Assembly: GCA_961205875.1 (NCBI GenBank)
Contig: OY540813.1
Location: 1,273,001 to 1,337,000, forward strand
DNA length: 64,000 bases
DNA from: Sialis fuliginosa
Taxonomy: Eukaryota; Arthropoda; Insecta; Megaloptera; Sialidae
Reading direction: 5' to 3'
The stretch's first letter is position 1. Every line of letters begins with the position of its first letter. The notes beneath the pieces were generated by a model, which worked only from the letters and a program-made list of their open reading frames with translations, was not told where the DNA came from and did no database searches. The position numbers and the translations under genes are program-made. Shown here one piece after another: positions 28,855-52,604 of the stretch.

Positions 28855-28905
28855 TTGTCTATGGTGTCAGCTGGGAAGAATGGTGGACATACGATGGAAT
28901 TTCTG
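28855..28905 (+). CDS. Probable internal exon of a carbonic anhydrase-related protein (CA10/CARP type)
   Basis: A pyrimidine tract and CTTTTACAG precede, and GTAAGTC follows, a 51-nt segment that enters and leaves in phase 1. The translation in that phase is VYGVSWEEWWTYDGIS, with a split glycine codon at the 3' edge. This WEEWWTYDGISG text is what I know from the N-terminus of insect carbonic anhydrase-related proteins, just after the signal peptide and before the FWGLIN segment; those proteins are secreted or surface, catalytically inactive relatives of carbonic anhydrase. I find no FWG-containing exon downstream to 64,000 and no convincing signal-peptide exon upstream, so the rest must lie outside or be unrecognised. 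An exon this short cannot be proved by sight; the match and strong splice sites make it likely. Confidence 0.72.
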
Positions 28906-32890: not shown

Positions 32891-34766
32891 ATGAAGTCTA
32901 AAGTATTTTTAACTTTGTTTCTGTTGTATCTTAAGACTTATTTTTGTTATTCTCACGCCGTCTTGTATGTAAGTATTCATTTATTACACAGCTATACAAA
33001 AAATAAAAAAAGTGCGGAGCCAAAAAGTCGAAATCCAAATTTTTGGATTTTTCTGCTTACCAGTTTTTTTGAATTTTGGGCTTAGGTTGGAATACTACTA
33101 AAAAAGCGACCTACATAGCATTGTAGTATTAATCGAGCATAGTCGAAATCTAAATTTTCGGAATTTTTCATTTACCAGTTTCTTTTTTATTCGAGTTTCA
33201 ATTTTGGGTCTAACCAATTTGGAAAAATTCAAACTGAAATAAGAATAAACTAGTGAACAAAAAATTCCATTGTATTTCGCCTACGCTCGACCAATACTAC
33301 AATGGTATACAGGTCGCTTTTTTACCCCCCCCTTTTTTTGGAAAAATTCAAAAGCCCAAAATTCAAGCTCAAATTAAAAAAAAATTGGTAAGCAGAAAAT
33401 TCTAAAAATTTGAATTTCGATTATATTCGACCAATACTACAATATAGGTCGCTTTTTTGGCTCCGCACTTTTTACTTGCAATATTTATAGGTCAATTCAA
33501 AACCAATCGATAATTTTAATCAAAATGATCCGCCAAATGAAATAAACATATTTTCAATTCATAATGAAGGTGAGTTTTTTAAAATAAATCTAAATTATTC
33601 GTTTTTTTTTTATAAATAAATTTTTTTTTCGTAATTATTTATTTCTACAGCAGATAAAGAAATTGGTATAAAAAATAATTTACAAAAGGTGTTAAAATTC
33701 CGCGACGATTACATCCTGTACCCTGGACATGGCTATTACAAATATCACAACTATGGGGCCTTGTGGCCCAATGCAAAATACATCTGTGAACTGGAAGGGG
33801 CCCATTTAGCAGTGATCAATTCTCAAGCCGAGGCAGATCTGATCACTGGAATTATTAAAACATATCCAAAGGCCCTCGTTACGGCACCAGATTATATATT
33901 AATGGGCTTCCATGATATGTACAAAGAAGGCGAATATGTTACTGTTTTAGGTATATAACCAAATACAATGAAATTTCTCAAAAATGACCAGTATTTAACT
34001 GTTTTTTTTGGTTTGGAATCTTACTAAGTCAATTTAGAGAAGTTTCACTTAAGATTAGTATATATAATTAAAAGATACTTAAGATTATTGACATAGTACC
34101 CCTTTAGTTGTGAACTTTCCGTATTTTTTTTTCGATAAAAAAAAGATTTGATTTCGAAAAATTATTTCACGATCGCAGTTCGTTAATATATACTATGGTC
34201 TCGCCGACTCTAGTTGTTGCACTCGCACACGTTGTTTGCCTGTAAGTTGCACTCTATTACTTTTTTTCACGCGTCTTTACAAACATGCTGTCACGTATTT
34301 ATAGTTTTTCTTTACTTTGAATAAACCTGGTTCTGAAACTACACGTGTTTTAAAATTTGTATAATATTTAAAAGGGTTGAAGTTTCGAATAATCAGTTTT
34401 TAAAACTTCTCTGTAAAGAATTTAAATTTAAAGAAATAAAGCACTTCCGGTGAGTTCTCTCATTTACCGTGTATTAAAAACTCGATTTTTAATGTTCAAT
34501 TACTCAAAAACCATAATAATATGTCCAATATTAATTTTAAAAATTAGTTTAATAATCGTATAGCCTTAAATCTCGAAAAAAGATATTAATAAAAAAAAAA
34601 TATTGGGTATTGTTTTTCAGGTGGTCTTGTGAGTGATTCTGGATATGAAAAATGGGACAAAGGTCAACCCAAAGGAGGTGCTAACAATTGTGGAGTAATA
34701 CATGCCAATGGCCTTTTTCATGATGCTAGCTGCTCAGTAGCTTGGAGTTTCATATGTGAAAAATAA
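32891..34766 (+). CDS. Secreted C-type lectin, gene 1 (hemolymph LPS-binding / immulectin-like)
   Basis: Four exons: 32,891-32,968, 33,491-33,569, 33,651-33,950 and 34,621-34,766, phases 0/1/1, all GT-AG; 200 residues. Residues 1-23 are a signal peptide (MKSKVFLTLFLLYL..., probable cut after SHA). Exon 2 encodes a polar linker ending NIFSIHNE. The lectin domain starts at about KFRDDY and has four cysteines: KYICELEGAHL, NNCGVIH, DASCSVAW and the final FICEK. The ligand loop reads GQPKGG rather than EPN or QPD, and the usual WND is replaced by FHDASC, so classical calcium-dependent mannose or galactose binding is doubtful. Exon 3 has eight extra residues (IGIKNNLQ region) against most paralogues, and its acceptor is CAGCAG, allowing one optional alanine. 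An AATAAA lies at 34,768. Likely a hemolymph pattern-recognition or opsonin-type lectin by family analogy. Confidence 0.9.
33006..33474. mobile_element. MITE with AAAAAGTGCGGAGCC termini in gene 1 intron 1
   Basis: AAAAAAGTGCGGAGCCAAAA at the left and TTTTTTGGCTCCGCACTTTT at the right are inverted complements. Interior arms containing CGACCAATACTACAAT and its relatives also fold back. It accounts for nearly all of the intron; no coding sequence. Confidence 0.8.
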
Positions 34767-34799
34767 CAATAAAATATATAAATTTTATTTGTATTTTGT

Positions 34800-35566
34800 A
34801 TTTTTGTGTGTGTGTTTTTACCAATAATAAATACATATTTTAACCCTCGGATGGTAGTTTGGGGTCACACAGACCCCCAGATGTATTTTTTTAAAACATG
34901 TATCCATATTATATGTTAGCAAACCTCTTTTAACAAAATTTGAAAAAAAATATTAGTCATTTTTTTTACTTTTTTTTGGGGGGGGGGGTATTGTTGTACA
35001 GTTGGTGTTTTATGGATCATCTCTTAAATGATAACTCTCTATTTTCAATCAGATTATATAAAAAAATAAGTTAGTTTTGTCTGTAAATTCAGTTTTTGAC
35101 ATACTAATTTTGAGAGATGATAAAACTGAATATAATCAACGAGGAAGTTGCAACTTATGTATAAATATTGCACCAGTCTTTTATATGACCCCATTAATGG
35201 CTATTTTTTAATTAAATGTACTGAATTAGAAATATGTGTTGATATTTGATTACTACCATTTCTGAATATTAATCTATATACATTTAACTGTCTTACAGCG
35301 TATATAATTTGACGACAATCGGCTAATTGGTGTCAAAATGGAAATATCGCTCTTAACGTCCGGAGTACTTGGAATTATAATGATTCGACATATCTTTAAC
35401 ATTTTAGAAATGATTGAATACATTTATCTGTAAAAAAGTATTCCGGTTAAAACTTCCTGTTGGCTTGATAGCTATATCTTCAAAAATAGCAAATGACTAA
35501 TAAATTCAGTGAATAATATTTTGTCCGTTAACTGTCCATTGTTAGTCTTACTTTAACTGCAGAAAC
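34800..35566. repeat. Gene 1 downstream unit duplicated after gene 2
   Basis: From TTTTTACCAATAATAAATAC and TTTTAACCCTCGGATGGTAG (34,816-34,870) onward the sequence matches that after gene 2 (38,447-38,945), including TCACACAGACC, a G run and AATCAGATTATATAAA. A MITE A fragment (35,165-35,345) sits within it. This shows that genes 1 and 2 arose by duplication of a block that included 3' flanking DNA. Confidence 0.85.
35511..35566 (+). promoter_or_regulatory. Degenerate core promoter of lectin gene 2
   Basis: At the place where the paralogues have ACTATAAATATTTTGCAA this gene has GTGAATAATATTTTGTCC, lacking a TATA consensus. The later TTAGTCTTACTTTAACTGCAG segment is retained. Expression may be altered relative to the paralogues. 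Confidence 0.5.
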
Positions 35567-38387
35567 ATGAAGTCTAAAGTATTTGCATCATTGTTTCTAT
35601 TCTATCTTAACATTTCTGTTTGTTTATCTCACGCTGTCTTATATGTAAGTATTCATTTAATATTGTTAGAACCATAGACATAGAGCATGGACTGCGCATT
35701 CTGTATTAACATAATGGTGTAACATTTCTCCAAGACAGTGAGAGAGATGCTGTGGCGTTTGGGATATATCTATCTCTTTTTCTAATAAGAATTAAATAGA
35801 CACTCTTGATTAAAAAAGGACAAGTATATCCCAAATGTATTTTTTGAAACGACTTTATTTTCAAGTCTATGTCTATTGTTAGAACCATAATAACGACGTA
35901 TATTGAATCTGTAATTGTAATTTTATAGGTTAATACAAAATCAAACGATACTTACAATCAAATTGATCCACATAATGAAGTGAATATATTTTCAATTCAT
36001 AATGAAGGTAACTTTAACATAAATCTAAAATATTCGTTTATGAATAAAGAAATTTTTCGTAAATATTTCTTTTGCAGATAAGGAACTAGATAAGGTGTTA
36101 AAATTCCGCGACGATTACACTCTGTATCCTGGACACGGCTATTACAAATATCACAATTATGGGGCCTTATGGCCCAATGCAAAGTACATTTGTGAACTAG
36201 AAGGGGCCCATTTAGCTGTGATCAATTCTCAAGCCGAAGCTGATTTGATCACATGGATTATTAAAACATATCCCAAGGCCCTTGTTACGTATCCAGATTA
36301 TATATCTTTAGGCTTCCATGACATGCACAAGGAAGGCGAATATGTTACTGTAACAGGTATATACATATATATACAGGATGTCAAATATGTAATCAAATGG
36401 TATATACAGCATCGAAAAACAAAAATATCTGCCTTGAGAACCACGGGACTTTCTTATACCTAACCTAACCTAACCTAACAGTGAATTGTATACGTAATTC
36501 TTTGTTTATTAAAATATTTCTAACAAAATAAAACAAAATGAATAATATAGGTAATATTATTCTCTCCATTATATAACAAGTGTTTTTTTTTAACGTAATA
36601 ACTGAAAACGAATGTTTACTCTTGTAAATTTTTGGATTTTTAAATTATTTTTGAAATAAAATAAAAATGTTTTAGATAAAAAATGTCGAGTATGTTATTA
36701 TCTATAATTTATTCCCCATACATTTTTTTCTAACATTTATGATTTAGCCAGAAAGAATTTTTTTATGTAATTATTTAGATTCACCTACACAGTTCACTCT
36801 CAGTATTACGTATAAGAAAGTCCCATGTTACCTACGGCAAATACACACACTGTTCAATCTCTGTAATACGTATAAGAAAGTCCCATGACACTCATGGCAG
36901 ATATTTCTCCTCTCTTATGAACCATTTGAATTATAATAATTTTTTTTTAAATTCGTTTTTACAAAAAAATGAATAGAACATAAATTATAGATATAGATAT
37001 TACCTACATTTTTTAACTTGACCATTTTTCTCTATGTTGCACTGTTTCAGAGTAATTCGAAAAATTAAAAAATCGACGTAGGTAAACATCCGTATCTGGT
37101 TGAAAGATCGTTTTCAAAAATAGGACGTTTTCTTCCCAGCCAAAAATTAATCTTAAATATAAAATATCAGCCTTCTACGATTTGTCGTATTTGAGTTACA
37201 GCGCTTACAGACAGACAGACAGACAGACAGAAAGACAGACGGACACACAGACATCATGGCGAAAATAGTCAGAATGGATCCAGGGAAGGTCAAAATAGAT
37301 AATTCCGTCAAAATCCGGAGTTTGAAAAAAATCGGCTTCATTATACTTATACTAATGTATATTTCATATACATGCTATAAGAAAGTAAAAAATACTTGTT
37401 CAATATTTTTGAAAAAGCTATTCAACTACACCAAACTCGACCCCCCCCCACTTACAGGGAGTGGTGGAGGGGGAAACTTTGATATCTTAAATGGAAACAC
37501 TTTTTTTTCCTTTTCTAACATAGAGTGTACCTTGTTTCTCCCCGAGAAATACCTTAAAGAATTCATCCATGGAAATAAGTTGAAATTTAGAGAGAGTGGA
37601 TTTTTAGGGTCACTGATTACGAATCCGCTATCAGAATTCTGAAATTCAAGATGGTGGATTCAATATGGAGGACACTGACATTTAAATCTTCGAGAATATT
37701 GATAAAAAATGTTTATTCAGGGGTTTAGCGTTGAGTTGTGCCGAGAAAGAGTGAATTTTCAAAATCTCATTTCGAATTTACGTATTGATGTCAGCCATAT
37801 TGGATAAACCATTTTGAATTACGTGAATCTGACATTGGATTTGTAATTAGTGAACCCAGAAATACACATTTTTATCAATATTCTCGAAGATTTAAATGTC
37901 CATATTGAATCCGCTATCTTGAATTTTACAAATCTGATAGCGGATTCGTAATCAGCGACCCCTAAAACACCCATACGATCATTTAAAAAATGGGGTTAGT
38001 TAAAAAAAAAACACGTAAATCGGATAAGTGGTTCTCGAGTGATAAGCGCACTAACGGACAGACTGACAGACAGAGAGACGTTGCATTTTATAATATGTAG
38101 AGATATAAATATAGATATAGTGAAACCTTTTTTATATATATTTATATAACGTTCTTTTTTTTAAAGATCAATATTGTATATCATTAAAAGATTTTCGAAA
38201 TTGCCGAAAAAATATTTGGTATTGTTTTTCAGGTGGTCTTTTGAGTGATTCTGGATTTACAAAATGGTACACAGGTGAACCCGAGGGCGGTGACAAACAA
38301 AACTGTGGATTAATGCATTATAGTGGTGTCCTTGTAGAAGGATTCTGCGAATACACATATAGTTTTATGTGTGAAAAAGAACTATAA
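35567..38387 (+). CDS. Secreted C-type lectin, gene 2
   Basis: Exons 35,567-35,644, 35,929-36,007, 36,078-36,356 and 38,233-38,387; 196 residues. Signal peptide MKSKVFASLFLFYLNISVCL then SHA. The linker carries an N-D-T glycosylation sequon (SNDTYNQ). Lectin-domain cysteines: KYICELE, QNCGLMH, EGFCEYT and FMCEKEL (four). The ligand loop reads GEPEGGDK: glutamate-proline is kept but asparagine is lost, and the segment before the third cysteine (VLVEGFC) has no aspartate, so the calcium-2 site looks incomplete. Intron 3 is 1.9 kb and full of repeats. Exon 1, exon 2 and the start of exon 3 (DKELDKVLKF) are closest to gene 6, with which it shares an intron-1 insertion. An AATAAA lies at 38,393-38,398. 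Promoter TATA is degenerate, but the reading frame and splice sites are intact. Confidence 0.9.
35677..35874. mobile_element. Short element in gene 2 intron 1 with 15-bp duplication
   Basis: 198 bp flanked by exact direct repeats ATTGTTAGAACCATA (35,662-35,676 and 35,875-35,889). It has short inverted ends GACATAGA / TCTATGTC. Gene 4 has one uninterrupted copy of the 15-bp target in intron 1 (gene 5 a near copy), so the empty site is known; gene 6 has the same insertion at the same place. The long duplication suggests retroposition (SINE-like), the inverted ends a DNA element; class unresolved. Confidence 0.85.
36405..37340. repeat. Large dispersed repeat in gene 2 intron 3
   Basis: It starts near AAAATATCTGCCTTGAGAAC, contains four CCTAA units at 36,460-36,478, CATCCGTATCTGGTTGAAAG, ACGATTTGTCGTATTTGAGT, a GACA array (37,208-37,235) and CATCATGGCGAAAATAGTCA. 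Related copies are at 12.4-13.15, 24.4-24.6 (inverted) and 47.95-48.65 kb. The ATGGCG frame from 37,256 is repeat-derived. Confidence 0.8.
37602..37967. repeat. Foldback in gene 2 intron 3
   Basis: TTTTAGGGTCACTGATTACG at the left and CGTAATCAGCGACCCCTAAA at the right begin arms of about 110 bp that also pair through ATCTTCGAGAATATTGATAA. Non-coding MITE-like element. Confidence 0.8.
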
Positions 38388-38436
38388 AATACAATAAATT
38401 TTATTTTTATTGATTTTTAAACTGTATAATGTAACT

Positions 38437-39250
38437 CTGTATTTTTACCAATAATAAATACATATTTTAACCCTCGGATGGTAGTTTGAGGTCACACAGA
38501 CCTCCAAATGTATTTTTTTTTAAAACATATATCCAAAATATGTATAAAAAGTTAGCAGGCCTCTTTTAAAAGAATTTGAAAAAATATATATATATTTGTC
38601 AATTTTATTTATTTATTTTTATTTGTTGGAGGGGGGGGGGGTATCATTGTACAGGTGGTGTTTCATAGATCATCTCTTAAATTATAACTATTTATTTTCA
38701 ATCAGATTATATAAACAAAAATTAGTTTTATCTGTAAATTCAGTTTTTGACACACTAATTTTCAGAGATGGTAAAACTGAATATAATCGACTATATACAT
38801 TTAATTATATTATTTTATATATATTTGATTACTACGATTTCTGAATATTAATCTATATACATTTAACTGTCTTACAGCGTGATTTGATCACATGAGGCCA
38901 ATAGGTGTCAAAATGGTGGACATTTAAACTAATTATTAGTATAATTTATTTATTAATTATTATATTATCAAAGCAACTGCTTTACATTGTTTCAAATATT
39001 TTTCTTTTATAACTTTTGTGTCGTAGTACTAATCATTAGAAAGTGTCTATCACTGCGTGATCATTACTGGTTTTATTTTATCTATTACTGGAAAAAAAAC
39101 ATAAACAAAATAAAAGGCTATAATTAAAAAATTGTTTTAATAAAGATGTACTTGTTTTATTAGTAACATGAGTTTACAAAAAAGAAGCCCGTCAATCACA
39201 AAAACAGTAAACTTTGATCTTATAGCGGCCATAACTGGTGCCAATACCTT
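38437..39250. repeat. Gene 2 downstream duplicate unit and MITE A copy
   Basis: 38,447-38,800 mirrors the flank after gene 1 (AACCCTCGGATGGTAG, TCACACAGACC, G run). From about 38,815 to 39,249 is a MITE A copy with its right terminus TAACTGGTGCCAATACCT followed by TA; its left end is not clear. Confidence 0.8.
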
Positions 39251-39312
39251 ATTTATTATTTGTAAAAATACAGCATTATACAGTTTTAAAAATCAAATAA
39301 AATTAATATATT

Positions 39313-40956
39313 TTATAGTTCTTTTTCACACATAAAACTCCAGGCAATTGAGCAGGTACCATCGTGAAGGGCCCCGTTATAATTCATATATCCACAGCTG
39401 TAGTCGTTACCTCCTTTGGGTTGACCTTTGTCCCATTTTGCATAACCAGAATCAGTCAATAGACCACCTGAAAAAAATTTTGTTTTGTAATTGTAAAATT
39501 ATTTTCGTTTTTGAGAAGTTTCACTGTATTTGAAAATATACCTGTTACAGTAACATATTCGCCTTCTTTGTACCTATCATGGTAGCCTACAGAAATATAA
39601 TCAGGATGCGGGACAAGTGCTTTTGGATAAGTTTTAATTATTGAAACGATCAAATCTGCCTCGGCTTGAGAATTGATAACAACTAAATGGGCCCCTTCTA
39701 GTTCACATATGTATTTTGCATTGGGCCACAAGGCCCCATGGATATGATATTTGTAATAGCCAAGTCCAGGGTACAGGGTGTAATCGTCACGGAACTTAAA
39801 CATCTTTTTTATTTCCACTTCCTTATCTGCTGAAGAAATAATTATAAAATTATTTATAAAGCATGAATTATTTAGTCACTTAAGGGGCTATGCTAGTTTA
39901 TCGGCCAAAAAAAGGTGTTTTTCACGAATTTTTTTCCAGCAATCTATGACAGATATCGTTCTAAATCTTTTTGGGTTTAATAAATGCACTATTGAAGTAC
40001 ACAATATTTTTTTTTAAATTAATTTTACTATACATATGTATATGTGTATAATGCAGCCATGTATGCAGGTATGAAAAAAAAACAGGTGCGCAGTGTCCCA
40101 GTGTTTTAGCAGGAACGAAACACCTGAAACACAAAACAAGATATGTCTTTTATTCAGTAGGTGGTTGGCTATGGCCTGAACTAGAATTTTAATTTTTGGG
40201 GCAAAAATAAGAAAATGGCGGCTGTTTGAACAAACGGAATCGAAAAAGACCCTTTTTTTCTTGGGTTTTCCTTGTAAAAAAATAGAAAAAATTTGAATTT
40301 TGACATAATCCTAGTTCCAGCCATGCCTATATATGTAACAAACATGTGGTTAAAATTTCAGACCGATCGATTGAGTAGTTTTCGAGAAATCATTGGGACA
40401 GTATCGAAAAACATCATTTCGAGAAAAACGCGTTTAAAGTTTATTTTTTTTTTAAATTGTTATAAAGTTGATACTTACAACTAATCAGTAAAGTAGGAGA
40501 AAGTATATTTATAAGGCTCAGATCACTCTAAAATATTAACACAATATTTTCGAAGGTATTTACTTTCAAAAAATGAAAAAAAAATCGATTTTTTGAAATG
40601 TATAAACTAGCATAGTCCCTTAAAGTAAAAATATACACCTTAACAACAATAAAATAAAGTCACTCGATACGTGTTTCGACTTCACAAGAAGTCCTCATCA
40701 GGAGCCTAACAGTTTCAGTTTAGATTTATTAAAAAACTCACCTTCATTTTGTATTGAAAATATGTTTACCCCATTTTGTGGATCATTTTGATTGAAATTA
40801 TCGTTTGGTTTTGTATTGATCTATAAAATTAGAAGAACATATTCAATATAGTTCTAACAATAATAAATAAATACTTACATAGAAGACAGCATAAGAATAA
40901 CAAATAGAAGCATTTAGATAAAACAGAAAAAAAGTTAAAAATACTTTAGACTTCAT
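39313..40956 (-). CDS. Secreted C-type lectin, gene 3
   Basis: Minus-strand exons 40,956-40,879, 40,820-40,742, 39,829-39,542 and 39,467-39,313; 199 residues, intron 1 only 58 bp. Signal peptide MKSKVFLTFFLFYLNASICY then SYA. The exon 2 linker lacks a glycosylation sequon (PNDNFNQ). Lectin cysteines: KYICELE, YSCGYMN, DGTCSIAW and FMCEKEL (four). The ligand loop is GQPKGGND and the segment before the third cysteine is LHDGTC, as in gene 1, so canonical EPN/WND sugar binding is doubtful. HLVVINSQ replaces the usual HLAVINSQ. The exon 3 acceptor is a CAGCAG tandem. Intron 2 holds a TTAA-flanked transposon and a hammerhead-like motif. Transcribed convergently with gene 2 and divergently from gene 4. 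Confidence 0.9.
39884..40619. mobile_element. TTAA-flanked element (GGGGCTATGC termini) in gene 3 intron 2
   Basis: TTAA at 39,880-39,883 and 40,620-40,623 flanks termini GGGGCTATGCTAGTTTAT / ATAAACTAGCATAGTCCC. TTAA duplication indicates piggyBac-type mobilisation. The interior shares GAGAAAAACGCGTTTAAAGT with the element at 31.6 kb. No transposase frame. Confidence 0.82.
40661..40715 (-). ncRNA. Hammerhead-ribozyme-like core in gene 3 intron 2
   Basis: On the minus strand CTGATGAG is followed by a perfect stem GACTTC/GAAGTC with loop TTGT and then GAAAC, that is CUGAUGA - stem II - GAAA, the complete hammerhead catalytic core. A short possible stem III is CAC...GTG around GTATCGA, but the expected UH before the cleavage point is not evident, so activity is uncertain. 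It lies 27 bp from exon 2 and on the same strand as the gene. Probably the relic of a Penelope-like or other hammerhead-bearing retroelement. Confidence 0.5.
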
Positions 40957-41020
40957 GTTTATTCTGTTAATGTTATCAGACACTGGCAGAAATAAGTTCA
41001 GTTGCAAAATATTTATAGTT
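40957..41020 (-). promoter_or_regulatory. Core promoter of lectin gene 3
   Basis: On the minus strand ACTATAAATATTTTGCAA (TATAAAT at 41,017-41,011) is followed about 30 bp later by TTCTGCCAGTGTCTGATAAC. It is nearly base-for-base identical to gene 4's promoter. Confidence 0.7.
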
Positions 41021-41165
41021 TTTTTTTAAATTACAAGTCATTTGCTATTTTTAAATCACATATGTACCACATAAATATTATATTTCTGTCTCGGTTTATT
41101 CAAATATATAATTTCTAATTTCATCGTGTAAGGTTAATGATATTTTTCATAATTTAGATGAGTAA

Positions 41166-41310
41166 TCATACCCCAGTGTTGGACTCTTGTTTAATGAATT
41201 AAATTTACTAAATAAAATATCATTACTGAATCATAATCTATAGAAACTTAACTGTAAGACAACTTAATTTGATGACAATCGACCAGTGGGTGTCAAAATG
41301 TTTAAAAAAA
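41166..41310. mobile_element. MITE family A fragment
   Basis: TACCCCAGTGTTGGACTCTT and TTGATGACAATCGACCAGTG followed by GGTGTCAAAATG identify the left part of MITE A; both termini are missing. Confidence 0.65.
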
Positions 41311-41960
41311 TATTTATTAATTATTATTATACAAGGTGGTCCGGTTTGGGATACAGATATTTTAAGAACTGATTCTTTGGTTCATTGTGAGTAAAAAATT
41401 GTACGGGAAGGTGGGGTCTACCTTCAACACTCTCTGAGCTACAGGATGTTTAAAAACTTCCTTCAGAGTAGTACTTACAAACGAAGGTTATCTCATAACT
41501 TTCAAAGTAACATAATTAGAGCAACCCCAATGAGTCAGTTTCATAGGTAATTAACTAACGTATTTTTCAGTATTAGCGTTATTGCTCATAAAATTAAAAA
41601 AATATTTTGAAAATTTGTATGAAAAAGACATTTTTCGCCAAAAGTACCTATAATATGTGGTACTTCTTATTATTATTAATTTGTTGAAACTAAAGTGTAA
41701 TGTAGATAGATAGTGAATTATTGATTAAAAATTCTTTAGGTACAAGGTTCGAAAATGGCCAGTTTTTTTTAGTTTCAGTGTCAAAGGGAACATCCATAAA
41801 TCAAGATTTTTTTTATAGAATTTTTAGACCTCTATGGTGGGAGGGGCTTCGAAGACTATTATTTACATGGAGTTGACACTCTGCCCCAATTTTTATTACC
41901 CATATACATAAGTTAATTTAGTAATTATAATAAATATAATATAAACAATATAATAATATA
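41311..41960. other. Gene-free intergenic stretch between genes 3 and 4
   Basis: It starts with an unassigned segment CAAGGTGGTCCGGTTTGG and contains AT-rich DNA with no frame. Nothing else recognised. Confidence 0.4.
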
Positions 41961-42369
41961 CAGTGTATTCCAAATTGATTAAGACATAGAAAATTTAACA
42001 TAGGGACAATTAGAAATGTTGTAGTAACCTTTGGTCAAATTTAACGATGTATCATTGGTATATTTTGAAATGCCGCCTCGAAACTAACAGATAATTTTTA
42101 AATAAATCAACAGTATTTTGTTTTCAACTTTAATGAAGAATAAAATACATTAATAAAATTAAAGTAAGCATCCTAGATAAAATTATAATAATATTTTTTG
42201 GCAGATATAAATTTGAAAACAAAATACTAATTACTATTTTATTAAATTTTGTGGTGGCATTTCAAAATTCACCAATCACACATCGTTAAATTTGACCAAA
42301 GGTTACTACAACAGTTCTAATTGTCCCCATGTTAAATTTCCTATGTCTTAATCAACTTAGAATACACTG
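41961..42369. mobile_element. Palindromic TA-flanked MITE upstream of gene 4
   Basis: CAGTGTATTCCAAATTGATT at the left and AATCAACTTAGAATACACTG at the right begin near-complementary arms of about 115 bp (TTGGTCAAATTTAACGATGT pairs with its complement near 42,280), flanked by TA. The centre is unpaired and non-coding. It ends about 130 bp before the gene 4 start. Confidence 0.85.
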
Positions 42370-42445
42370 TATAATTAGTTAATGTGGTCGATGAATTAAT
42401 AAAAATATGATAAAAAAACAACAACAAATGACTAATAAGTTAAAC

Positions 42446-42500
42446 TATAAATATTTTGCAAATTAACTTATTTCTGCCAGTGTCTGATAACTGCAGAAAC
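42446..42500 (+). promoter_or_regulatory. Core promoter of lectin gene 4
   Basis: ACTATAAATATTTTGCAA with TATAAAT at 42,446, then TTCTGCCAGTGTCTGATAAC, then CTGCAGAAAC immediately before the ATG. The CCAGTG about 31 bp after TATA fits an arthropod initiator. Confidence 0.7.
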
Positions 42501-44129
42501 ATGAATTCTAAAGTGTTTTTAACTTTGTTCCTTATATATCTAAATACTAATTTTTGTTCTTCTCACGCTGTTTTGAATGTAAGTATTTATTTATTATTGT
42601 TAGAACCATAATAACGTCTTATATTGAATCTGTATTTATAATATTTATAGATAAATACAACACCCATTGATACAGCTAACCCAAATGATTCGCAAAATGG
42701 AGTAAATATATTTTCAATTCATAACGAAGGTACAATACATAACTTTTATATATATAAATCTAAATTATTTGTTAATAAATAAAAAAATATTACGTAATTA
42801 TTTTTTCAGCAGATAAGGAACCAGGTAAAAAATTCCGTGACGATTACACCCTGTACCCTGGACAGGGTTTTTACAAATATCATATCGAAGGGGCCCTATG
42901 GCACAATGCAAAATATATATGTGAACTGGAAGGGGCCCATTTAGCTGTGATCAATTCTCAAGCCGAGGCTGATTTAATTTCTTTGATAATTACTTCGTAT
43001 CCTAAACCGAGTCTTCCTGAACCGCATTGGACTTTGTTAGGTTTTCATGATAAAATTAAAGATGGCGAATTCGTGACTATATTAGGTAAATAAAACATGT
43101 ATATTTGAAAGGTATTATTTTTTACATTTATAATAATTAAAAAACAAAATAATTGGCCTGGGTCTAAATTTTTTCCTTTAAACCAGTATACTTTAAGTAT
43201 TATCAGGCCCAGGCCAAACATCATTTGGGGGCCCCATACCCCTCAGTCTCAAGAGCGTAAGGGAATTTATAATACCATATTATTCTTAAATTTAGTTTGA
43301 ATTCGTATCAGATAATATAAATAATATATATTTATGTAAAATATTAATTATTTTTGGGACCCTTGAATATTCTTTGAAATTAAAAATACACCTCTGAGTG
43401 GATTCATTTTGGCGTAACCTACAACTTTTCTATTTTCGAAAATTCTGAGAATTGGGGCATTTTTGAAGTGGCTTGCGTCAAACAAATTTAACGATAGTTA
43501 TAGGAAATTTACGAATAACCCTTATTTTTTTACTTGAATTACATGATTTTATAATGCAAACAACGGGGAATATATTGACCTACAAAAATATTGGGGCATT
43601 TAGCGAGACAACATGTCAAATTCATGATGTTATGTAATTTATAAATAACCGACTGATTTTTGCACAATTGCTAGATAAATAATAGTAAAATGTTATGGTT
43701 ATATTGGCCTGGTCTTTTGCCCAAACCTACGCCCTAAACATGCCACATCAAAAACGCCCCAATTCTCAGAATTTTCGAAGACAAAAAAGTTGTAGGTTAC
43801 GCCAAAATAAATCCACTCACGAAGTTTCAGAGGAGTATTTTTTATTCGGGACCGAGGACTAGAAGTCTAAACAGACAGAACGAGAATTGAAAAACGATCA
43901 CAATGCTTCCTACAATCTTTCGGATACGGTGAGAAACCAAAATTCCACTTTTGATCTTGTTCTAGGTGGACTGTTGAAAGATACTGGATATACAAAATGG
44001 GGGAGCGGGCAACCCAACAATGCATTTGGTAAACAGGACTGTGGGTGCGTTCATTCAGGCGGTCTTCTTGACGATTGCACTTGCACCACGCCTTATAGTT
44101 TCATGTGCGAAAAAGAAACTGTAAAATAA
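42501..44129 (+). CDS. Secreted C-type lectin, gene 4 (six-cysteine form)
   Basis: Exons 42,501-42,578, 42,651-42,729, 42,810-43,085 and 43,966-44,129; 198 residues. Signal peptide MNSKVFLTLFLIYLNTNFCS then SHA. The linker carries an N-D-S sequon (PNDSQNG). Lectin-domain cysteines: KYICELE, then DCGCVH, DDCTCTT and FMCEKE, that is two more than genes 1-3, placed so they could form an extra disulfide between the loop strands. The ligand loop reads GQPNNAFGKQ, and LLDDC keeps the aspartate expected before the third cysteine. Distal exon 3 (LPEPHWTLLGFHDKIKDGEF) is distinct from genes 1-3 and groups it with gene 5. The C-terminus has a four-residue extension (ETVK). Exon 3 has no methionine, so start-codon-based scans miss it. 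Confidence 0.9.
43381..43845. repeat. Inverted-repeat element in gene 4 intron 3
   Basis: Arms of roughly 110 bp: GGCGTAACCTACAACTTTTC and AATTCTGAGAATTGGGGCAT on the left pair with GCCCCAATTCTCAGAATTTT and AAGTTGTAGGTTACGCC on the right. Non-coding MITE-like foldback. Just upstream (43,150-43,220) is a smaller inverted pair TTGGCCTGGG / CCCAGGCCAA. Confidence 0.8.
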
Positions 44130-44221
44130 ATTCATTTCATATCATTTTTAATAACCCTATCTTAAATTTCGCTTTTTTGCAAGAATATATATTATACAGC
44201 CAATTGAAACTCACCACAATA

Positions 44222-44600
44222 CATGGATTACCAGAAAGATGGAGACGTGCCCTGGAATGATCAGGGCAGGCGACGTTTATGAGCTCAAAAAGACAAAAAT
44301 TTCGGTACCCGATTTTATCTTTTTTCTTATGTATATTCTATAAATATAAACAAACATTACATGGATTACCAGAGGGATGGAGACGTGCCCTGGGATGATC
44401 AGGGCAGGCGACGATTACGAAATCCAAGAGACAAAAATTTTGGTACCCGATTTTATCTTTTTTCTTATGTGTATTCTATAAATATAAAAAACATTACATG
44501 GATTACCGGATGGATGTGGAGGTGCCCTGGGCTGATCAGGGCAGGTAACGTTTACGAGATCCACGAGACAAAAGTTCAGCCTCCGATTCATGTGTGTATT
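44222..44600 (+). repeat. Three tandem exon-like units encoding VPW(N/D/A)DQG
   Basis: Three ~140-bp units begin with ATG at 44,223, 44,361 and 44,499 and read MDYQKDGDVPWNDQGRRR, MDYQRDGDVPWDDQGRRR and MDYRMDVEVPWADQGR, then differ in length before a stop. Each is followed by AATTT(C/T)GGTACCCGATTTT or its remains. They start 93 bp after the gene 4 stop codon. They are homologous to the units at 17.7-18.4 kb. I do not recognise the peptide; they could be exons captured in a repeat or a small unknown gene family. Confidence 0.55.
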
Positions 44601-44739
44601 CTATAATGTAACTTTATAGTGTATTATGAATATTGAATTAAGTTGAAATATGCTGTTAATGTTAATTTGTTTATTATTACCTGCTTGTACTGCCCTATTT
44701 TAATTAAAAAAATTGTTAACGATCATTTTTTTAAATTAA

Positions 44740-45060
44740 TTTATATATATAAAAATGAATGTTAGTTTGTATGAGGCTTATAGACTCGAGAATTACTGAA
44801 CCGATTTCAATGCGATTTTCACCAATAGTTAGATACTTTTTCTGTGCAGTATCGTGGCTATTCATATTTTATAAAATCTAAGATTTAACATCAAAAGTCT
44901 AAAAAAATTCTTTATCAAGTCGTGTTTTGTTTTTATGATGTCAGCATACAACTGTAATTTAGGTATATGTAGGGTGGGTATGTTAGGTAGGCACTTTATG
45001 TTTAATTAAATTAATATCCCCTGGTAACACCGGGTCCAATGCGCCAGTTATTTAATAAAG
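44740..45060. repeat. Dispersed repeat between genes 4 and 5
   Basis: ATTACTGAACCGATTTCAAT and AATATCCCCTGGTAACACCG mark a copy of the family seen at 5.1-5.4 and, inverted, at 24.65 kb. No gene. Confidence 0.6.
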
Positions 45061-45252
45061 TACAAAATTTATAAGAAATTATGTATAAAAAAATATAAAC
45101 TGCGAATTTTTTTTATTACTTATCTGAGTAAACTTATTAATTATTATTAACTAATTATGTAAATTTAGTAATTAGTTAATGTGGTCGATATTTTAATTTA
45201 AAAATTAATTAAAATGTGATAAAAAAAAAACAACAAATGACTAATAAGTTAA

Positions 45253-45307
45253 TATAAATATTTTGCAACTAAACTTATTTCTGCCAGTGTCTAATAACTG
45301 CAGAAAC
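45253..45307 (+). promoter_or_regulatory. Core promoter of lectin gene 5
   Basis: AATATAAATATTTTGCAACT with TATAAAT at 45,253, then TTTCTGCCAGTGTCTAATAA and CTGCAGAAAC before the ATG, nearly identical to gene 4 over the whole 55 bp. Confidence 0.7.
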
Positions 45308-46810
45308 ATGAATTCTAAAGTTTTTTTAACTTTGTTTCTTATATATCTAAATACTAATTTTTGTTATTCTCACGCTGTCTTGTATGTAAGTATCCATATA
45401 TTATTTTTAGAACCATAATAACGTCTTATATTGAATCTGTACTTGTAATATTTATAGATTAATACAAAATCCAACGAAACCTTCAACCAAAATGAACCAC
45501 AAAATGAAGTAAACATATTTTCAATTCATAACGAAGGTAATTTTTATATAAATAATCATAAAAATTGGTTTAAAATATTTCGTAATTATTTTTTCATCAG
45601 ATAAGGAACCAGGTACTAAAAAGGTGATGAAATTCCGTGACGATTACACCCTGTACCCTGGACATGGCTATTACAAATATCATATCCAAGGGGGCATTTG
45701 GGTCAATGCAAAATACATTTGTGAACTGGAAGGGGCCCATTTAGCTGTGATAAATTCTCAAGCTGAGGCGGATTTAATTTCTGTTATTATCAATTTATAT
45801 CCTAAGCCTAAACTTACTGGACCGCATTGGACTTTGTTGGGGTACCATGATATGCACAAGGAAGGAGAATTTTTAACGATATTTGGTATATTTTTATTAT
45901 TACATAATATTAATTTTTCGAGTAGAAATAAAAAAATACAATTTATTTTGCGCGTTGTTTTCAAGGAACCAATTAAAACGCGTAAATTGAGGGATTACTG
46001 TACTGTTTAAAATATTAAATCTTATATTAGAATGCAGTCAGAAGGGGGGAGCGGGTCTTTCGTAAGTTTTATCTATTTAATTATTTATTTATTTTAAAAA
46101 TGTGAATTATTTTTTGTAATTACATCAATTCAAAATTAATGAAAAAATACTATTAAAAATAGATAATCTTACATTAGAAAGCATTGGGACTGTTTTTTCC
46201 TTATCTAAGAATTAATTAATGTACTTCGAAATAATTGAGTCAGATTTTATGAATACAAAGCTAATTTGAATTTTCTTTTATATAACTGCATTTATTGATA
46301 ATAATTTTTAATGTTCCAAAATTTTTACTGTTCTTAAGTTGGCAATACGTTCTGTGATTCTGACAGCTTTCTATGATTTTGCAATGTCGAGTTTGTACTT
46401 ATTTGATTTTATGTGTTGTTAAAATATCAAAAAATACGAAAACATTAATAAATAAAGACATTTTTTGTAATTGATATTCTATTATACATTTATAACATTT
46501 GAATATGTCTTCGTGATGACGTTAATTCCCGCACTAACGTTGATTGGTCAAGGAGCTATTGAGATTACCTTGTCTTTATACGAGTATACCTTGCCTCCAG
46601 CATTATTTAACCTTTGTAAATTTAATCAATGAAAATTTTCTTACTGTGTTTCAAGGTGGGTCTTTGAAAGATACAGGATACAACAAATGGTTCCCGGGAC
46701 AGCCAGGTGGTGGCCGTGGACAGAACTGTGGTTGTGTTCACTTCGATGGTCTCCTTGAAGATTGCACTTGCTCCGTACCTTACAGTTTTATGTGTGAAAA
46801 AGAAATCTAA
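45308..46810 (+). CDS. Secreted C-type lectin, gene 5 (six-cysteine form)
   Basis: Exons 45,308-45,385, 45,458-45,536, 45,601-45,885 and 46,656-46,810; 198 residues. Signal peptide MNSKVFLTLFLIYLNTNFCY then SHA, almost identical to gene 4. The linker has an N-E-T sequon (SNETFNQ). Lectin cysteines: KYICELE, NCGCVH, EDCTCSV and FMCEKEI (six). The ligand loop is GQPGGGRGQ, without EPN or QPD. Distal exon 3 reads LTGPHWTLLGYHDMHKEGEF, the PHWTLLG form shared only with gene 4. The exon 3 acceptor is a single CAG, so the optional alanine of gene 4 is absent. AATAAA at 46,852. Genes 4 and 5 form a tandem pair by exon and promoter similarity. Confidence 0.9.
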
Positions 46811-47761
46811 ATTACATTTTATGTATTGTATGAATCAAATGTATTTTATCAAATAAAATTGTACAATATTCACTAACAGATGTTTTTTTTGTTTCATTCT
46901 GAAACGATCACAAAGCTTCTCGTATCTTCGATATTACGAGAAAGTAAAAGTCAAAAACAAAAAACAAAAAATTAAGTTCGTAAAGCGATATAATTACTAA
47001 TTAAATTATTGAATGAAAAGTTTTATTATAAAATGTAAGTCAGTAAATAATTAACTAACTAACTTTGAGGGCTATGAGCTTTATAGAGTTACTTAACTTC
47101 AAATTTATGAACAATTATACATATAAGCCTAAAATATACTTAAATTTTTTTTAATATCAGATACTCATATGTATTTCAGCTTAAATACTTAAAATTTTAT
47201 TTAAAAAATTATCATGCACTATTTAATGTACTTAGGCCCTTTGGATATCATATTGAAAATAATTAATTTTCAATCTTAAGTAGTCAAATTCATAACTGAA
47301 AAAGTAAGTAGTAAAGCCTTACCTTTTTTGCTCATAACTTGTATGTAAATTTATTTTTCGCGGATGTTAATATACCATTTGAAAGAGTACCTTAATAGCT
47401 ATAACTTTACTGGAGAAATTTATTGAATACTATGTAATGAAAAAAAAAATGCCATTTTTCTGAAGGGGTTGAAATCAGCTCCAAAAAATTTTGGCATGTA
47501 AGATACACATCCTCTACAAAACCGTAGAAAAATCAGAAAAGCTTGAGTGAAACTGCCTGATTTACAAAATTTTATCGAGTAGAAAAAAAATAGTAGGAAA
47601 ATAAAAAAACAAATACTTTCTTAAAGAGTTTGACTTTGAACCTTTATTTATTGTAAGTAGAAAAATACATTTTATAAAATATGGGGGACTGTGTAACCCC
47701 AAAATACCATAAAATTTTTTGTAAAAATACAAAAAAATACATAAGAATTAAATAATATATT
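46811..47761. other. Convergent intergenic region, genes 5 and 6
   Basis: 46,890-46,945 is the ATCACAAAGCTTCTCGTATC dispersed repeat. The rest is AT-rich with no gene or clear inverted repeat. Confidence 0.45.
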
Positions 47762-49567
47762 TCATAGTTCTTTTTCACACATGAAACTAGCAGGAATTGA
47801 ACAGTGGCAATCATGAAGTACACCATTAGTATAACGTACACATCCACAGTTTTCGTCGCTGCGTTTTTGGGGTTGGCCTTTTTCCCATTTTGCATAACCA
47901 GAATTAGTCAATAGACCACCTGAAAAAAAAAATACCAAATCATATTTTTTATATTAAAATATCTGCCATGGGAACCACGGGACTTTCTTATACGTAATAC
48001 TGACAGTGAACAGTGGACGTGATTCTAATTTTATTTAAAACAAACTGCGGATGTTTACTCTTGTCAATTTTTGAATTTTGGAATTATTTTTGAAATAAGA
48101 AAAAAATGTTTTAGATAAAAAATGTCGAGTGTGTTATTATCTATAAATTATTCCACTTACATATTTTTCAAACATTTATGATTTAGCCAGAAATAATATT
48201 TTTAAATAATTAATTAGAATTACGTATAAGAAATTCCCATGTTACCTATTACAAACACGTACACTGTTCAATCTCTATCGTATAAGAAAGTCCCATGACA
48301 CTCATGGTAGAAATTTCTTCTCTGTTATGAACCATTTAAAATATAATAAACAATTTCTTTTTTCAAAAATTACTTTTTTTCGAAAAAAATTAATATTACC
48401 TATAATTTTTAATAAATTTTTATAAACTGTTTCAAAGTAATTCGAAAAATTCAAAAATCGACGTCAGAAAACATCCGTATCCGGTTGAAAGATCGTTTTC
48501 AAAAATAGGAGGTTTTCTTCCCAGACAAAAATTAAGTCGTATTTGAGTTACAAACAATTAGACATCATGGCGAAAATAGTCAGAATGGATTCAGAGATTT
48601 CGAAAAAAATCGGCTTGACAATATTTATATTAGTATTTCATATACATATACATATAAAAATCGTAAGTGAAACTTCTCCAAACAGACCAACAAAGATTAC
48701 TAAAAAAGTAATCCTTAAAAAATGAAAAAATATTTTAAAAAACTGATCGTTTTTGAGAAGTTTCATAATATTTGGTTACATACCTGTTACAGTAACATAT
48801 TCGCCTTTCTTATACAACTCGTGAAAGCCCATGAATATAAAATCGGGATAATTTACAAGGGCCTTGGGATACGTTTTGAAGATCCCAGAGATCAAATCCG
48901 CCTCGGCTTGAGAATTAATCACAGCCAAATGGGCCCCTTCTAGTTCACAAATATATTTTGCATTTAGCCACAGAGCTCCACGGATATGATATTTGTAATA
49001 GCCATGTCCAGGGTACAGGGTGTAATCGTCGCGGAATTTTAACACCTTATCTAGTTCCTTATCTGCAAAAGAAATAATTACGAAAAATTTCTTTATTCAT
49101 AAACGAATATTTTAGATTTAAGTTAAAGTTACCTTCATTATGAATTGAAAATATATTCACTTCATTTTGTGGATCATTTTGATTGTCAGTATCGTTTGAT
49201 TTTGTATTAACCTATAAAATTATAATTACAGATTCAATATAAGTCGTTATTATGGTTCTAACAATAGACATAGACTTGAAAATAAAGTCGTTTCAAAAAA
49301 ATAGATTTGGGATATACTTGTCCTTTTTTAAACAGAAGTGTCTATTTTATTTTTATTAAAAAAAGAGATAGATATATCCCAAACGCCACAGCATCTCTCT
49401 CACTGTTTTGGAAAAATGTTACACCATTATGTTAATGCGCGTTCCATACTCTATATCTATGGTTCTAACAATATTAAATGAATACTTACATATAAGACAG
49501 CGTGTGATAAACAAACAGAAATATTAAGATAGAATAGAATCAATGATACAAGTATTTGAGACTTCAT
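47762..49567 (-). CDS. Secreted C-type lectin, gene 6 (six-cysteine form)
   Basis: Minus-strand exons 49,567-49,490, 49,211-49,133, 49,062-48,784 and 47,919-47,762; 197 residues, stop TGA. Signal peptide MKSQILVSLILFYLNISVCL then SHA. The linker has an N-D-T sequon (SNDTDNQ). Lectin cysteines: KYICELE, NCGCVR, HDCHCSI and FMCEKEL (six). The ligand loop reads GQPQKRSDE, more basic than in the paralogues. Exons 1-3 and the intron-1 insertion ally it with gene 2, whereas the start of exon 4 (GGLLTNSGYAKWEKGQP) is closest to gene 3, so the gene looks mosaic. Distal exon 3 has HELYKKGEYV where others have HDMYKEGEY. Intron 3 contains a large dispersed repeat. Confidence 0.9.
47955..48660. repeat. 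Large dispersed repeat in gene 6 intron 3
   Basis: Same family as at 12.4 and 36.4 kb (ATCTGCCATGGGAACCACGG, AAAATGTCGAGTGTGTTATT, CATCCGTATCCGGTTGAAAG, CATCATGGCGAAAATAGTCA) with internal deletions, including loss of the GACA array. It lies antisense to gene 6, whereas the gene 2 copy is sense. Confidence 0.8.
49266..49457. mobile_element. Short element in gene 6 intron 1, orthologous to that in gene 2
   Basis: 192 bp flanked by TATGGTTCTAACAAT on both sides (49,251-49,265 and 49,458-49,472), the complement of the 15-bp duplication in gene 2. Interior landmarks (AGATGCTGTGGCGTTTGGGA, GGACAAGTATATCCCAAA on the coding strand) are shared. Same site and same orientation to the gene. Confidence 0.88.
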
Positions 49568-49630
49568 GTTTCTTCTGTTAAAGTTATCAGACACTGGCAG
49601 GATTAATTTAAGTTGCAAAATATTTATAGT
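49568..49630 (-). promoter_or_regulatory. Core promoter of lectin gene 6
   Basis: On the minus strand ACTATAAATATTTTGCAACT (TATAAAT at 49,628-49,622) is followed by ATCCTGCCAGTGTCTGATAA and TTTAACAGAAGAAAC before the ATG. The leader downstream resembles gene 1. Confidence 0.7.
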
Positions 49631-50096
49631 TTAATTTTTTATGAATGTATCGACCACATTAACTAATTACATAAATAATTACTAAATAAAATTAATAAGT
49701 CTTAGAAATAACTGTAACAAAGTTAAAAATACTTTTACTTTTTAGTTATCAGACGCAGGAAGAAATTAAGTTGCAAAATATTTATAGTTAACCTTGTTAG
49801 TCATTTGTTTTTATTTTTGATAACATTTTAATTAAAAAAAAAATTACATGTCGATAATATTAACCACTTTACCTCCGTTTCGATTTAGTTAATTATAAAT
49901 TATATACACCCAATTCTGTTTTTATACGATTTTGAAATAGCATGGTCGATAATAATAAAACAATTTTTTTATTGTATTGATTTGATTTTACACAATTCAT
50001 TTAAAAAAAATAGTATAAAATGTATACAATATATTATTTTTGTACAGTGAAGTTCTTTATGTTACGTAGAATTACATAACGAACATTTTTTGTATG
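49631..50096. other. Intergenic stretch with a second promoter-like segment
   Basis: About 49,700-49,800 repeats pieces of a lectin gene start on the minus strand: CAAAATATTTATAGTTAACC (TATA region), ATCAGACGCAGGAAGAAATT and AAAGTTAAAAATACTTTTAC, like the complement of a decayed exon 1, without an intact ATG frame. This may be the 5' stub of an eighth lectin copy. Otherwise AT-rich. Confidence 0.45.
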
Positions 50097-50496
50097 TACA
50101 GTCGCCTGCAGAACTCGTCTGGCACCTTAAAGGCTAGAATCGCTTACAACAGATTCCAAATTTAAAGACAAACATCATCGGTTATCTTTTTCTATCAAGT
50201 TTAATATATTTAAATACTAAAATTCGGAATATCAAATATTTATTGCCACAAAATTTACGTATACAATTTTCAATAGATTACATAATAATTTAATTGTACA
50301 AATATATATGAGTACCTATTAATTATAAACGAAGAGTAGTTCTTTATCTAGCAAATGAATTTCTAAATATCTGTCTTTGTTTGGTACATGGAGAAATGAT
50401 TTAAATATTATAATTGCACAAATGGGAGGAGCCTACTAAGTTTGTGATAAACGAAAATGAATACAAACTGCAAGACCATTAATGCAGGTGACTGTA
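50097..50496. mobile_element. MITE family B, complete copy
   Basis: Left end TACAGTCGCCTGCAGAACTC, right end TTAATGCAGGTGACTGTA: about 14-18 bp of inverted terminus with TA outermost. Interior landmarks AACATCATCGGTTATCTTTT and GGAGGAGCCTACTAAGTTTG. No coding capacity. A second copy in the opposite orientation is nested in a MITE A at 55.3 kb. Confidence 0.85.
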
Positions 50497-50589
50497 CATC
50501 CTTATGGATATTTACAACCATTTTTGATTTATTGAGCAAAAAGTACAAAATTCAACAATATTTATTTTAAAAAATTTGTTTAAAAAAAA

Positions 50590-50641
50590 AACGTTTACAA
50601 AATCCCCATGCATTTCACGTTTATCTTGAATATCCTGTATA
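50590..50641. repeat. Foldback-family terminus just after gene 7
   Basis: On the minus strand TACAGGATATTCAAGATAAA then CGTGAAATGCATGGGGATTT, matching the left end of the element at 58,668 (CAGGATGTCCAAGATAAGCG). It starts about 18 bp beyond the gene 7 stop codon, so it is probably within the 3' UTR. Confidence 0.7.
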
Positions 50642-50656
50642 TGGATGTATATATTT

Positions 50657-52604
50657 TTATAATTCTTTTTCACACATGTAACTGTAAGGTATGGTGCAAG
50701 TACAATCATCGAGGGTTCCTTTGGTATTAATGCATCCACAGTTTTGGTTTCCTTCGAGATTATTTGGTTCACCTACTCCCCATTTTGTATATCCAGTATC
50801 GCTCACTAATCCACCTGAAAAAACAATACCAAATAAGATAAATAAAACGGCCAAGTGCGTGTTGGGCACGCACATGAAAGGGTTCCGTAGTCTCATTTAA
50901 AAAAATTTCATAAACTATTCTTTCTACAGTGTTCGTTATAATTTTCATTGAAAGTACTAATTAAAAACTACATTCTAGATTTTTTTCAGATTTTTTGAAT
51001 TGATAGTTTAGCAATTAAAGGGGGGACGCTCTGATAACGACATTTAAAAGCAAATATATCGTAACTGCAGGGTCAAAATCAAAAGGTCATATCATATTTT
51101 TTGTTGCATTTTAGAAAACCTATGTAAACATTCCCCACTTAATGGATTAATTGATTTTTTTTAATTATACTTTTCAGATTTTTTGAATCGATAGTTTAAA
51201 AAATAGACGGGGGGGGGGGGCGCTTTGATAATGACTTTGAACGCAAATATATCGTGACTTTTTGTTGCATTTTAGGAGACCTATCGAAAAACACCCCATT
51301 CAATGGGACAAGTGAAAAAAAAGGGGGTCCAAATTTTTTTTTTCAAAAATCTTATCATTTCTGTTTTTCGCCCATATACCAAATTTCATCTTAATCGGTA
51401 TAGAATTTATATAGACAGGACAATGGTTCTTAATTTGTAGAAAATTAGGTACCCTAAAATATATATATTATTTGGGAAATTCGTGACAAATTAATTTTGT
51501 AACTTACCTAATACAGTCACAAATTCGCCCTCCTTGTACATATCATGAAACCCCATCATTATATAATCAGGGTAGGCAACGAGGGCCTTGGGATATGTTC
51601 TGATAATCCCAGTGATCAAATCTACCTCGGCTTGAGAATTGATCACAGCTAAATGGGCCCCTTCCAGTTCACAGATGTATTTTGCATTTTGCCACAGGGC
51701 CCCATGGATATGATATTTGTAATAACCGAATCCATGGTACAGGGTGTAATCATCACGGAATTTTAACACCTTATCTGCTGAAGAAATAATTAAAAATTTA
51801 TATTATACATTATACTAATAAATATTATACAGATTAATTTAAAAAGTTACCTTCGTTATGAATTGAAAATATGTTCACTTCATTTTGGGGATCATTTTGA
51901 TTATAAGTATCGTTGGATTTTGTATTGATCTATAACATTATATCATATTATTATATAATATTAAACATTTATAAGGTAGTGGCACCAGTCTTGGCAAGAT
52001 TTTTTAAATTAAATGTATTGAATTAGAAATATGTGTTGATAATTATAATTGATTACTACCATTTCTGAATATTAATCTATATACATTTTACTGTCTTACA
52101 GCGTGATTTGATGACAATCGGCCAATATGTTTCAAAATGTTGGACATTTAAATTAATTATAATTTATTTATTAATTATTATATTATCATAGCAACTGCTT
52201 TACATTGTTTCAAATTTGACGATTCTTTCTTTTATATCTTTTGTGCCGTAGTACTTATCATTTTGTGTGCTTATTACTGATTTTACTTTATCCATTACTG
52301 GAGAAAAAACATAAACAAAATAAAATGCTATAATTTAAAAAACGAACTATATTTGCAGACTTTGATAATTAAATTGATTAAATAAAGAATTACTTGTTTT
52401 ATTAGTAACATGAGTTCATGAGAATTAAAAAAAAAAAAACCATTAATCCAAAAAAATTATTCTTATAGCGGCCATAACTGGTGCCTTTACCTTATGTAGT
52501 TTGAACAATAATAAATAAAAACTTACATACAAGACAGCGTGGGAATAACAAAAAGAAATATTAAGATATAACAGAAACAAAGGTAAAAATATTTTAGACT
52601 TCAT
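50657..52604 (-). CDS. Secreted C-type lectin, gene 7 (six-cysteine, EPN form)
   Basis: Minus-strand exons 52,604-52,527, 51,929-51,851, 51,777-51,508 and 50,814-50,657; 194 residues, the shortest. Signal peptide MKSKIFLPLFLLYLNISFCY then SHA. The linker has an N-D-T sequon (SNDTYNQ). Exon 3 starts ADKVLKFRDDY, lacking the residues between DK and VLKF found elsewhere. Lectin cysteines: KYICELE, NCGCIN, DDCTCTI and YMCEKEL (six). The ligand loop reads GEPNNLEGNQNCG: glutamate-proline-asparagine as in mannose-type calcium-dependent lectins, and LDDC provides an aspartate where WND would be. Of the seven it best preserves a classical sugar site. YHGFGYYKY replaces YPGHGYYKY. The exon 3 acceptor is CAGCAG. 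Intron 1 contains a complete MITE A. Confidence 0.9.
50815..51507. repeat. Gene 7 intron 3, dispersed repeat
   Basis: CGGCCAAGTGCGTGTTGGGC and AAAGGGTTCCGTAGTCTCAT begin a repeat whose wording is familiar from insect genomes. It continues with two related blocks (CTCTGATAACGACATTTAAA and CTTTGATAATGACTTTGAAC) and a 12-base G run at 51,209-51,220. No coding sequence. Confidence 0.6.
51974..52492. mobile_element. MITE family A, complete copy in gene 7 intron 1
   Basis: Termini AGGTAGTGGCACCAGTCTTG and CATAACTGGTGCCTTTACCT flanked by TA on both sides; 519 bp with all interior landmarks. It supplies most of the intron. The other lectin genes lack it here, so it inserted after the gene 7 lineage separated. 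Confidence 0.9.

Follow-up and report, generated by a model that had tools for sequence, protein, structure and literature searches.

Positions 32,891-52,604 of a 64,000-nt stretch of the Sialis fuliginosa genome carry what we interpret as a locally expanded array of seven genes for secreted C-type lectins with a single carbohydrate-recognition domain (CRD), the CTL-S type, which most likely sits within an intron, at least 35 kb long, of a plus-strand gene for a carbonic anhydrase-related protein (CARP) of the CA10-like kind; we put the probability of this reading as a whole at about three in four. The stretch analyzed, hereafter the window, is 1,273,001-1,337,000 of contig OY540813.1 (assembly GCA_961205875.1), read on the forward strand. 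Its G+C content is 29.9%, and it contains a single run of Ns at 2,484-2,683, so that the region 28,906-64,000 is free of gaps. The seven-gene lectin observation is confirmed, and the nesting in a CARP intron is likely, conditional on the CARP gene being intact in cis. Both halves of the reading, i.e., a local lectin family and a gene cluster within the intron of a host, are arrangements of known kinds.

The seven lectin genes and their products

Complete gene models could be built from the window sequence for all seven lectins, with every intron bounded by GT and AG and no internal stop codon in any of them. The genes run in the strand order + + - + + - - and share a common structure: exon 1 is always 78 bp and exon 2 always 79 bp in length, exon 3 ranges from 267 to 297 bp and exon 4 from 146 to 164 bp, the intron phases are 0,1,1 throughout, and the encoded proteins are 193-199 amino acids (aa) long. 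The original prediction had described seven complete four-exon lectin genes in this order of strands, with identical phases and identical lengths of the first two exons, and the models bear it out on each count. The genes, all supported by gene model and Pfam match, are as follows:

32891..34766, plus strand: lectin gene G1, exons 32891-32968, 33491-33569, 33654-33950, 34621-34766
35567..38387, plus strand: lectin gene G2, exons 35567-35644, 35929-36007, 36078-36356, 38233-38387
39313..40956, minus strand: lectin gene G3, exons 40879-40956, 40742-40820, 39542-39826, 39313-39467
42501..44129, plus strand: lectin gene G4, exons 42501-42578, 42651-42729, 42813-43085, 43966-44129
45308..46810, plus strand: lectin gene G5, exons 45308-45385, 45458-45536, 45601-45885, 46656-46810
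47762..49567, minus strand: lectin gene G6, exons 49490-49567, 49133-49211, 48784-49062, 47762-47919
50657..52604, minus strand: lectin gene G7, exons 52527-52604, 51851-51929, 51508-51774, 50657-50814

Each protein begins with a hydrophobic leader encoded by exon 1 (judged by eye in all seven), followed by a spacer and then by one Lectin_C domain (Pfam PF00059), which is recovered once per protein with E-values from 1.7e-10 to 1e-14. The four canonical disulfide cysteines (C87, C167, C181 and C189 in the numbering of G7) are invariant across the family, and exon 4 encodes three of them together with the EPN/QPD region of the sugar-binding site. At that site G7 carries EPN and G4 carries QPN, with QPK (two copies), EPE, QPG and QPQ in the remaining five; the EPN/QPD triplet is missing from many C-type lectin-like domains. 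Searches against PDB sequences at E <= 1e-6 returned 46 matches, every one bearing the name of a protein known to contain a C-type lectin-like domain; among them, the EPNN of G7 aligns with the EPNN of mannose receptor 2. The alignment of the seven proteins further reveals an additional pair of cysteine motifs, CGC ... CxC, both present in G4-G7 and both missing from G1-G3. Because the copies carry both motifs or neither, and never one, these cysteines suggest a single additional disulfide that would have been gained or lost as a unit.

The ratio of nonsynonymous to synonymous divergence (dN/dS, by the NG86 method) over the whole gene lies between 0.21 and 0.33 in all 21 pairs. This shows overall purifying selection on the seven lectins, so that the array is not a product of chance. 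When the genes are divided into parts, dN/dS is 0.11-0.33 in exon 3, 0.15-0.73 in exon 4 (for the 19 of 21 pairs in which it could be computed) and 0.19-0.50 in exons 1-2, the pair G2/G6 excepted (see below). At the protein level the last exon is the most divergent: amino acid identity between copies is 0.48-0.69 in exon 4, compared with 0.60-0.85 in exons 1-2 and 0.67-0.90 in exon 3. The copies probably differ in ligand, because it is this exon, with its EPN/QPD-site half of the CRD, that has diverged most. The possibility of positive selection on exon 4 finds no support: dN/dS is below 1 in all 19 computable pairs (the two others have no usable dS), and what this exon displays is only more change.

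As to expression, the promoters of G3-G7 and of a relic copy described below have in common the element TATAAATATTTTGCAA, starting 55-61 bp before the ATG in those five genes; G1 has a TATAAA 57 bp before its ATG in a variant context, and no TATA element is found within 120 bp of the ATG of G2. The lectins would be expressed from compact promoters of their own, with a TATA element in six of the seven. GATA-like sites upstream of the genes number 23 against 14.9 expected, a comparison made without a significance test. At the level of splicing, the models all start exon 3 at the second AG, which in G1 (33648-33653), G3, G4 and G7 belongs to a tandem CAGCAG acceptor; in these four genes this would permit a splice variant differing by one residue (Ala).

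The CARP exon upstream of the array

The case for nesting begins with a short exon that lies before the first lectin gene and with the long interval that follows it:

28855..28905, plus strand: coding exon of the CARP (CA10-like) gene, 51 bp, phase 1 to phase 1, encoding VYGVSWEEWWTYDGIS and a split G codon
28906..64000, no strand assigned: proposed host intron at its minimum extent, with the 3' end unseen; gap-free and with no further CARPB exon

A tblastn search of the window with Drosophila CARPB, using the mature sequence as printed in PMC12316454, aligns at this exon with 13 of 14 residues identical (37.7 bits, E 1.7e-5 for this window). The last of the matched residues, a G, borrows two bases of the intron, which makes the exon-coded identity 12 of 13. 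The next-best match in the window scores 22.7 bits and the best in 200 Markov-randomised windows 28.5 bits, none of the 200 coming as high as the observed value. Its AG acceptor is pyrimidine-rich and its donor reads GTAAGT, and the exon corresponds in position to the start of the mature fly protein. It thereby shares with insect CA10-like CARP genes (CARPB, CG32698) the mature N-terminus VSWE[DE]WWTYDGIS; the difference from them is that one exon is visible here, and a complete gene would have its carbonic anhydrase (CA) domain beyond the window. The 21-residue CARP peptide gave no Pfam match and one chance match in PDB (thymidylate synthase, E 3.6), as expected at that length. On the strength of the CARPB match, the randomised windows and the consensus splice sites, the plus-strand CARP-type exon at 28,855, whose reality the original prediction had left as a condition, can be taken as real. 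According to PMC4539348, CA10-like proteins are conserved, secretory and mainly neural in expression; for fly CARP-B, female reproductive tissue is the chief site of expression, followed by the central nervous system.

The next exon of CARPB (FWGLIN-type) was not found by tblastn up to 64,000 in gap-free sequence, nor was a carbonic anhydrase-like domain found in the window; the latter would lie beyond 64,000. The sensitivity of this search was gauged by planting altered copies of exons, 20 trials each, a copy being counted when it scored above 28.5 bits. Planted exons of 45 residues were recovered every time (20 of 20) at each of 90, 70, 60 and 50% identity, and those of 25 residues in 20, 19, 17 and 8 of 20 trials at the same identities. 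The contention that no FWGLIN exon occurs up to 64,000 thus holds, with the CARPB search negative and the 45-residue plants recovered in full at 50% identity. If the gene is intact, no less than 35,095 bp of the window belongs to the host intron, with the lectins wholly inside. So close a likeness to the fly protein, together with two preserved splice sites, would be hard to explain in a 51-bp exon that had fallen out of use; from its continued use it would follow that the remaining CARP exons are to be sought in cis past 64,000 on the plus strand, where the host gene would continue.

Duplication, inversion and probable exchange among the copies

Simple tandem repetition does not describe the array: its copies arose by local duplication with inversion and probably swapped pieces by gene conversion, the mosaic history being shown for at least G2/G6. 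The same-strand neighbors G4 and G5 are 82% identical over 744 bp. From exon 1 through intron 2 and into early exon 3, the pair G2/G6, which lies on opposite strands, is identical at 543 of 573 positions, an insert common to both in intron 1 included; over the remaining coding sequence the figure is 275 of 365 (Fisher p 9e-18, with a break point picked after the sliding identities had been seen). At the break in G2, the sliding identity to G6 is 38/40 before and 28/40 after, while that to G1 is 37/40 on both sides; for the pair G2/G6, dS is 0.71 in exon 3 versus 0.07 in exons 1-2. Introns that differ less than the coding sequence after them, combined with a high synonymous divergence in exon 3, are best accounted for if gene conversion or recombination replaced part of one copy, with G2 as the mosaic. 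Trees built part by part agree with this, albeit weakly: the 5' end groups G2 with G6 at 99% support, a pairing that is unrecovered in late exon 3 and exon 4, and the exon 4 tree places G4+G5+G7 together with 96% support.

Three further features bear on the history of the copies:

35674..35876, no strand assigned: insert resembling a miniature inverted-repeat transposable element (MITE), 203 bp, in intron 1 of G2, bounded by inverted ends of 11 bp, ATAGACATAGA/TCTATGTCTAT; G4 and G5, whose intron 1 measures 72 bp, lack it
49264..49460, no strand assigned: the same MITE-like insert, 197 bp, in intron 1 of G6, with one mismatch in one inverted end
49685..49835 (about), minus strand: relic 5' end of an eighth lectin copy just upstream of G6, with TATA promoter, leader and a degenerate exon 1 lacking the ATG

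By its sequence, the last of these represents the remains of an eighth lectin copy: its exon 1 matches that of G1 at 84.6% over 52 bp (blastn, E 8e-11), and the promoter alignment also matches. A search for related loci elsewhere produced 42 pattern stretches in genome contigs and 4 in viral contigs, with none confirmed in either set.

Several repeats lie around and within the array. Just upstream of G1, at 31565-32673, is a foldback-like element with two inverted arms of about 372 bp that are 93.6% identical. A dispersed repeat, a possible substrate for rearrangements of the array, recurs between and inside the lectin genes at 35176-35341, 38820-39255, 51985-52498 (in intron 1 of G7) and 52794-53036. 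A 138-bp tandem repeat of 2.6 copies (44216-44573) directly follows G4, and short runs of CCTAA, the unit of the insect-type telomere repeat, occur at 36459-36478, inside intron 3 of G2, and at 12495-12509. Of 108 flanking open reading frames (ORFs) that passed filters for length, complexity and position, 10 were scanned against Pfam and nine had no match. A plus-strand ORF at 6824-6985 matched GIY-YIG weakly (E 6e-4, 20.5 bits, below the curated cut-off of 22.6), gave a weak Y_Y_Y match as well, and is a possible relic of a Penelope-like element. The minus-strand ORF at 29519-29755 (79 aa, ending in ...SALKELLKTAKQEKITKFFKPLPKPEDNN) has no Pfam match, and its end resembles that of a Tigger-type transposase. 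The window yielded no Rfam match at gathering thresholds and no tRNA.

Alternative readings, comparable systems and implications

Several observations weigh against the overall reading. No 3' exon of the host was found within the window on the far side of the lectins, and a search for its signal-peptide exon 1 in positions 1-28,854 returned no candidate on the plus strand and none in the minus-strand control, which makes it uninformative. On the side of the lectins, the textbook EPN is confined to G7, and five of the seven have no canonical EPN, QPD or QPN; an AlphaFold2 model of G7, computed from the seven-row alignment, was discarded with a predicted local distance difference test score of 33.8; and G2/G6 alone gives a dN/dS of 1.03 in exons 1-2. 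The groupings that replace G2+G6 in the late-exon-3 and exon 4 trees are weak (38-63%). Finally, NF-kB-like sites in the 600 bp upstream of the lectin genes number 1 against 0.92 expected, or 1 against 2.64 with a looser pattern.

The main alternative to nesting is that the array is intergenic and the CARP exon a fragment cut off from the rest of its gene by inversion, translocation or an assembly misjoin somewhere downstream of 28.9 kb. We hold this to be unlikely: there is indeed no other CARP exon on either side within the 64 kb, and the region has repeats and inverted duplicates such as that at 31,565-32,673; however, the exon is intact, near-identical to fly CARPB and furnished with consensus splice sites, which argues that it is still used, and no N gap intervenes between it and 64,000. 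It is far less probable still that a CARP exon before 32,891 is too short or too diverged to be detected, which would place the array within some subsequent intron or past the end of the gene. The recovery of just 8 of 20 planted 25-residue exons at 50% identity leaves some room for it, but plants of 45 residues were always seen at that identity and those of 25 residues in 19 of 20 trials at 70%, and in Drosophila the CARPB sequence carries on for 23 noted residues that have no match here. Of the original nesting claim, then, the host exon, which passes the CARPB test, and the missing next exon up to 64,000 have stood, whereas the 3' exons of the host are outside the window and its exon 1 was not found upstream.

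A different alternative concerns function, and is compatible with nesting in a CARP intron: the proteins could be salivary, gut, venom or reproductive secreted products and not immune receptors, some of them without sugar binding. We regard it as a tentative but substantial possibility, favored by the five copies without a canonical triplet and by the lack of enrichment of kB-like sites upstream; yet insect C-type lectins (CTLs), according to PMC8702095, include pattern recognition receptors alongside others of unknown function. By analogy with the family, the seven lectins may take part in pathogen recognition, with the secreted proteins binding microbial or other glycans in hemolymph or gut. 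To this extent the earlier label "immune-type" keeps the inference from the family and nothing further, for the sequence shows no sign of immune induction, kB-like sites being no commoner than expected.

Clusters of several genes within a host intron have a precedent in Drosophila, where an intron of dunce contains Sgs4 together with four ng genes (PMC10835880). As in the array proposed here, a cluster of secreted-protein-type genes is housed within the intron of an unrelated gene; the gene family and the host are others, and in Sialis the 3' exons of the host are unseen. For the lectins themselves, the nearest parallel is with the CTL-S of fig wasps, for which PMC8702095 describes tandem CTL groups on one scaffold: there, too, each protein has one Lectin_C domain and related copies lie together. 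In the array here, five of the seven copies lack EPN, QPD or QPN, four of the seven have the extra paired CxC...CxC, and the strands are mixed. Literature keyword searches gave, among the matches listed, no account of a CARP gene with lectins nested inside it, which is no proof of absence, and six lectin peptide strings from the array had no match in the literature.

One may go further and picture the giant intron of a constrained neural or ovarian CARP gene as a maintained haven that anchors a diversifying lectin array, where separation would break the host, where inversion and gene conversion reshuffle the lectins and the last exon diversifies ligand binding, and where transcription of the host may interfere with or gate lectin expression. 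We consider this extension decidedly improbable as a whole. The G2/G6 mosaic offers a clean example of exchange between paralogs in opposite orientation. If the nest is real, it would be a further case, beside Sgs4 and the ng genes in dunce, of a secreted gene family housed in one intron of a constrained gene, and synteny between CARP and the lectins across insects would give the array an age and reveal whether a rapidly changing family is protected or constrained by its host gene.

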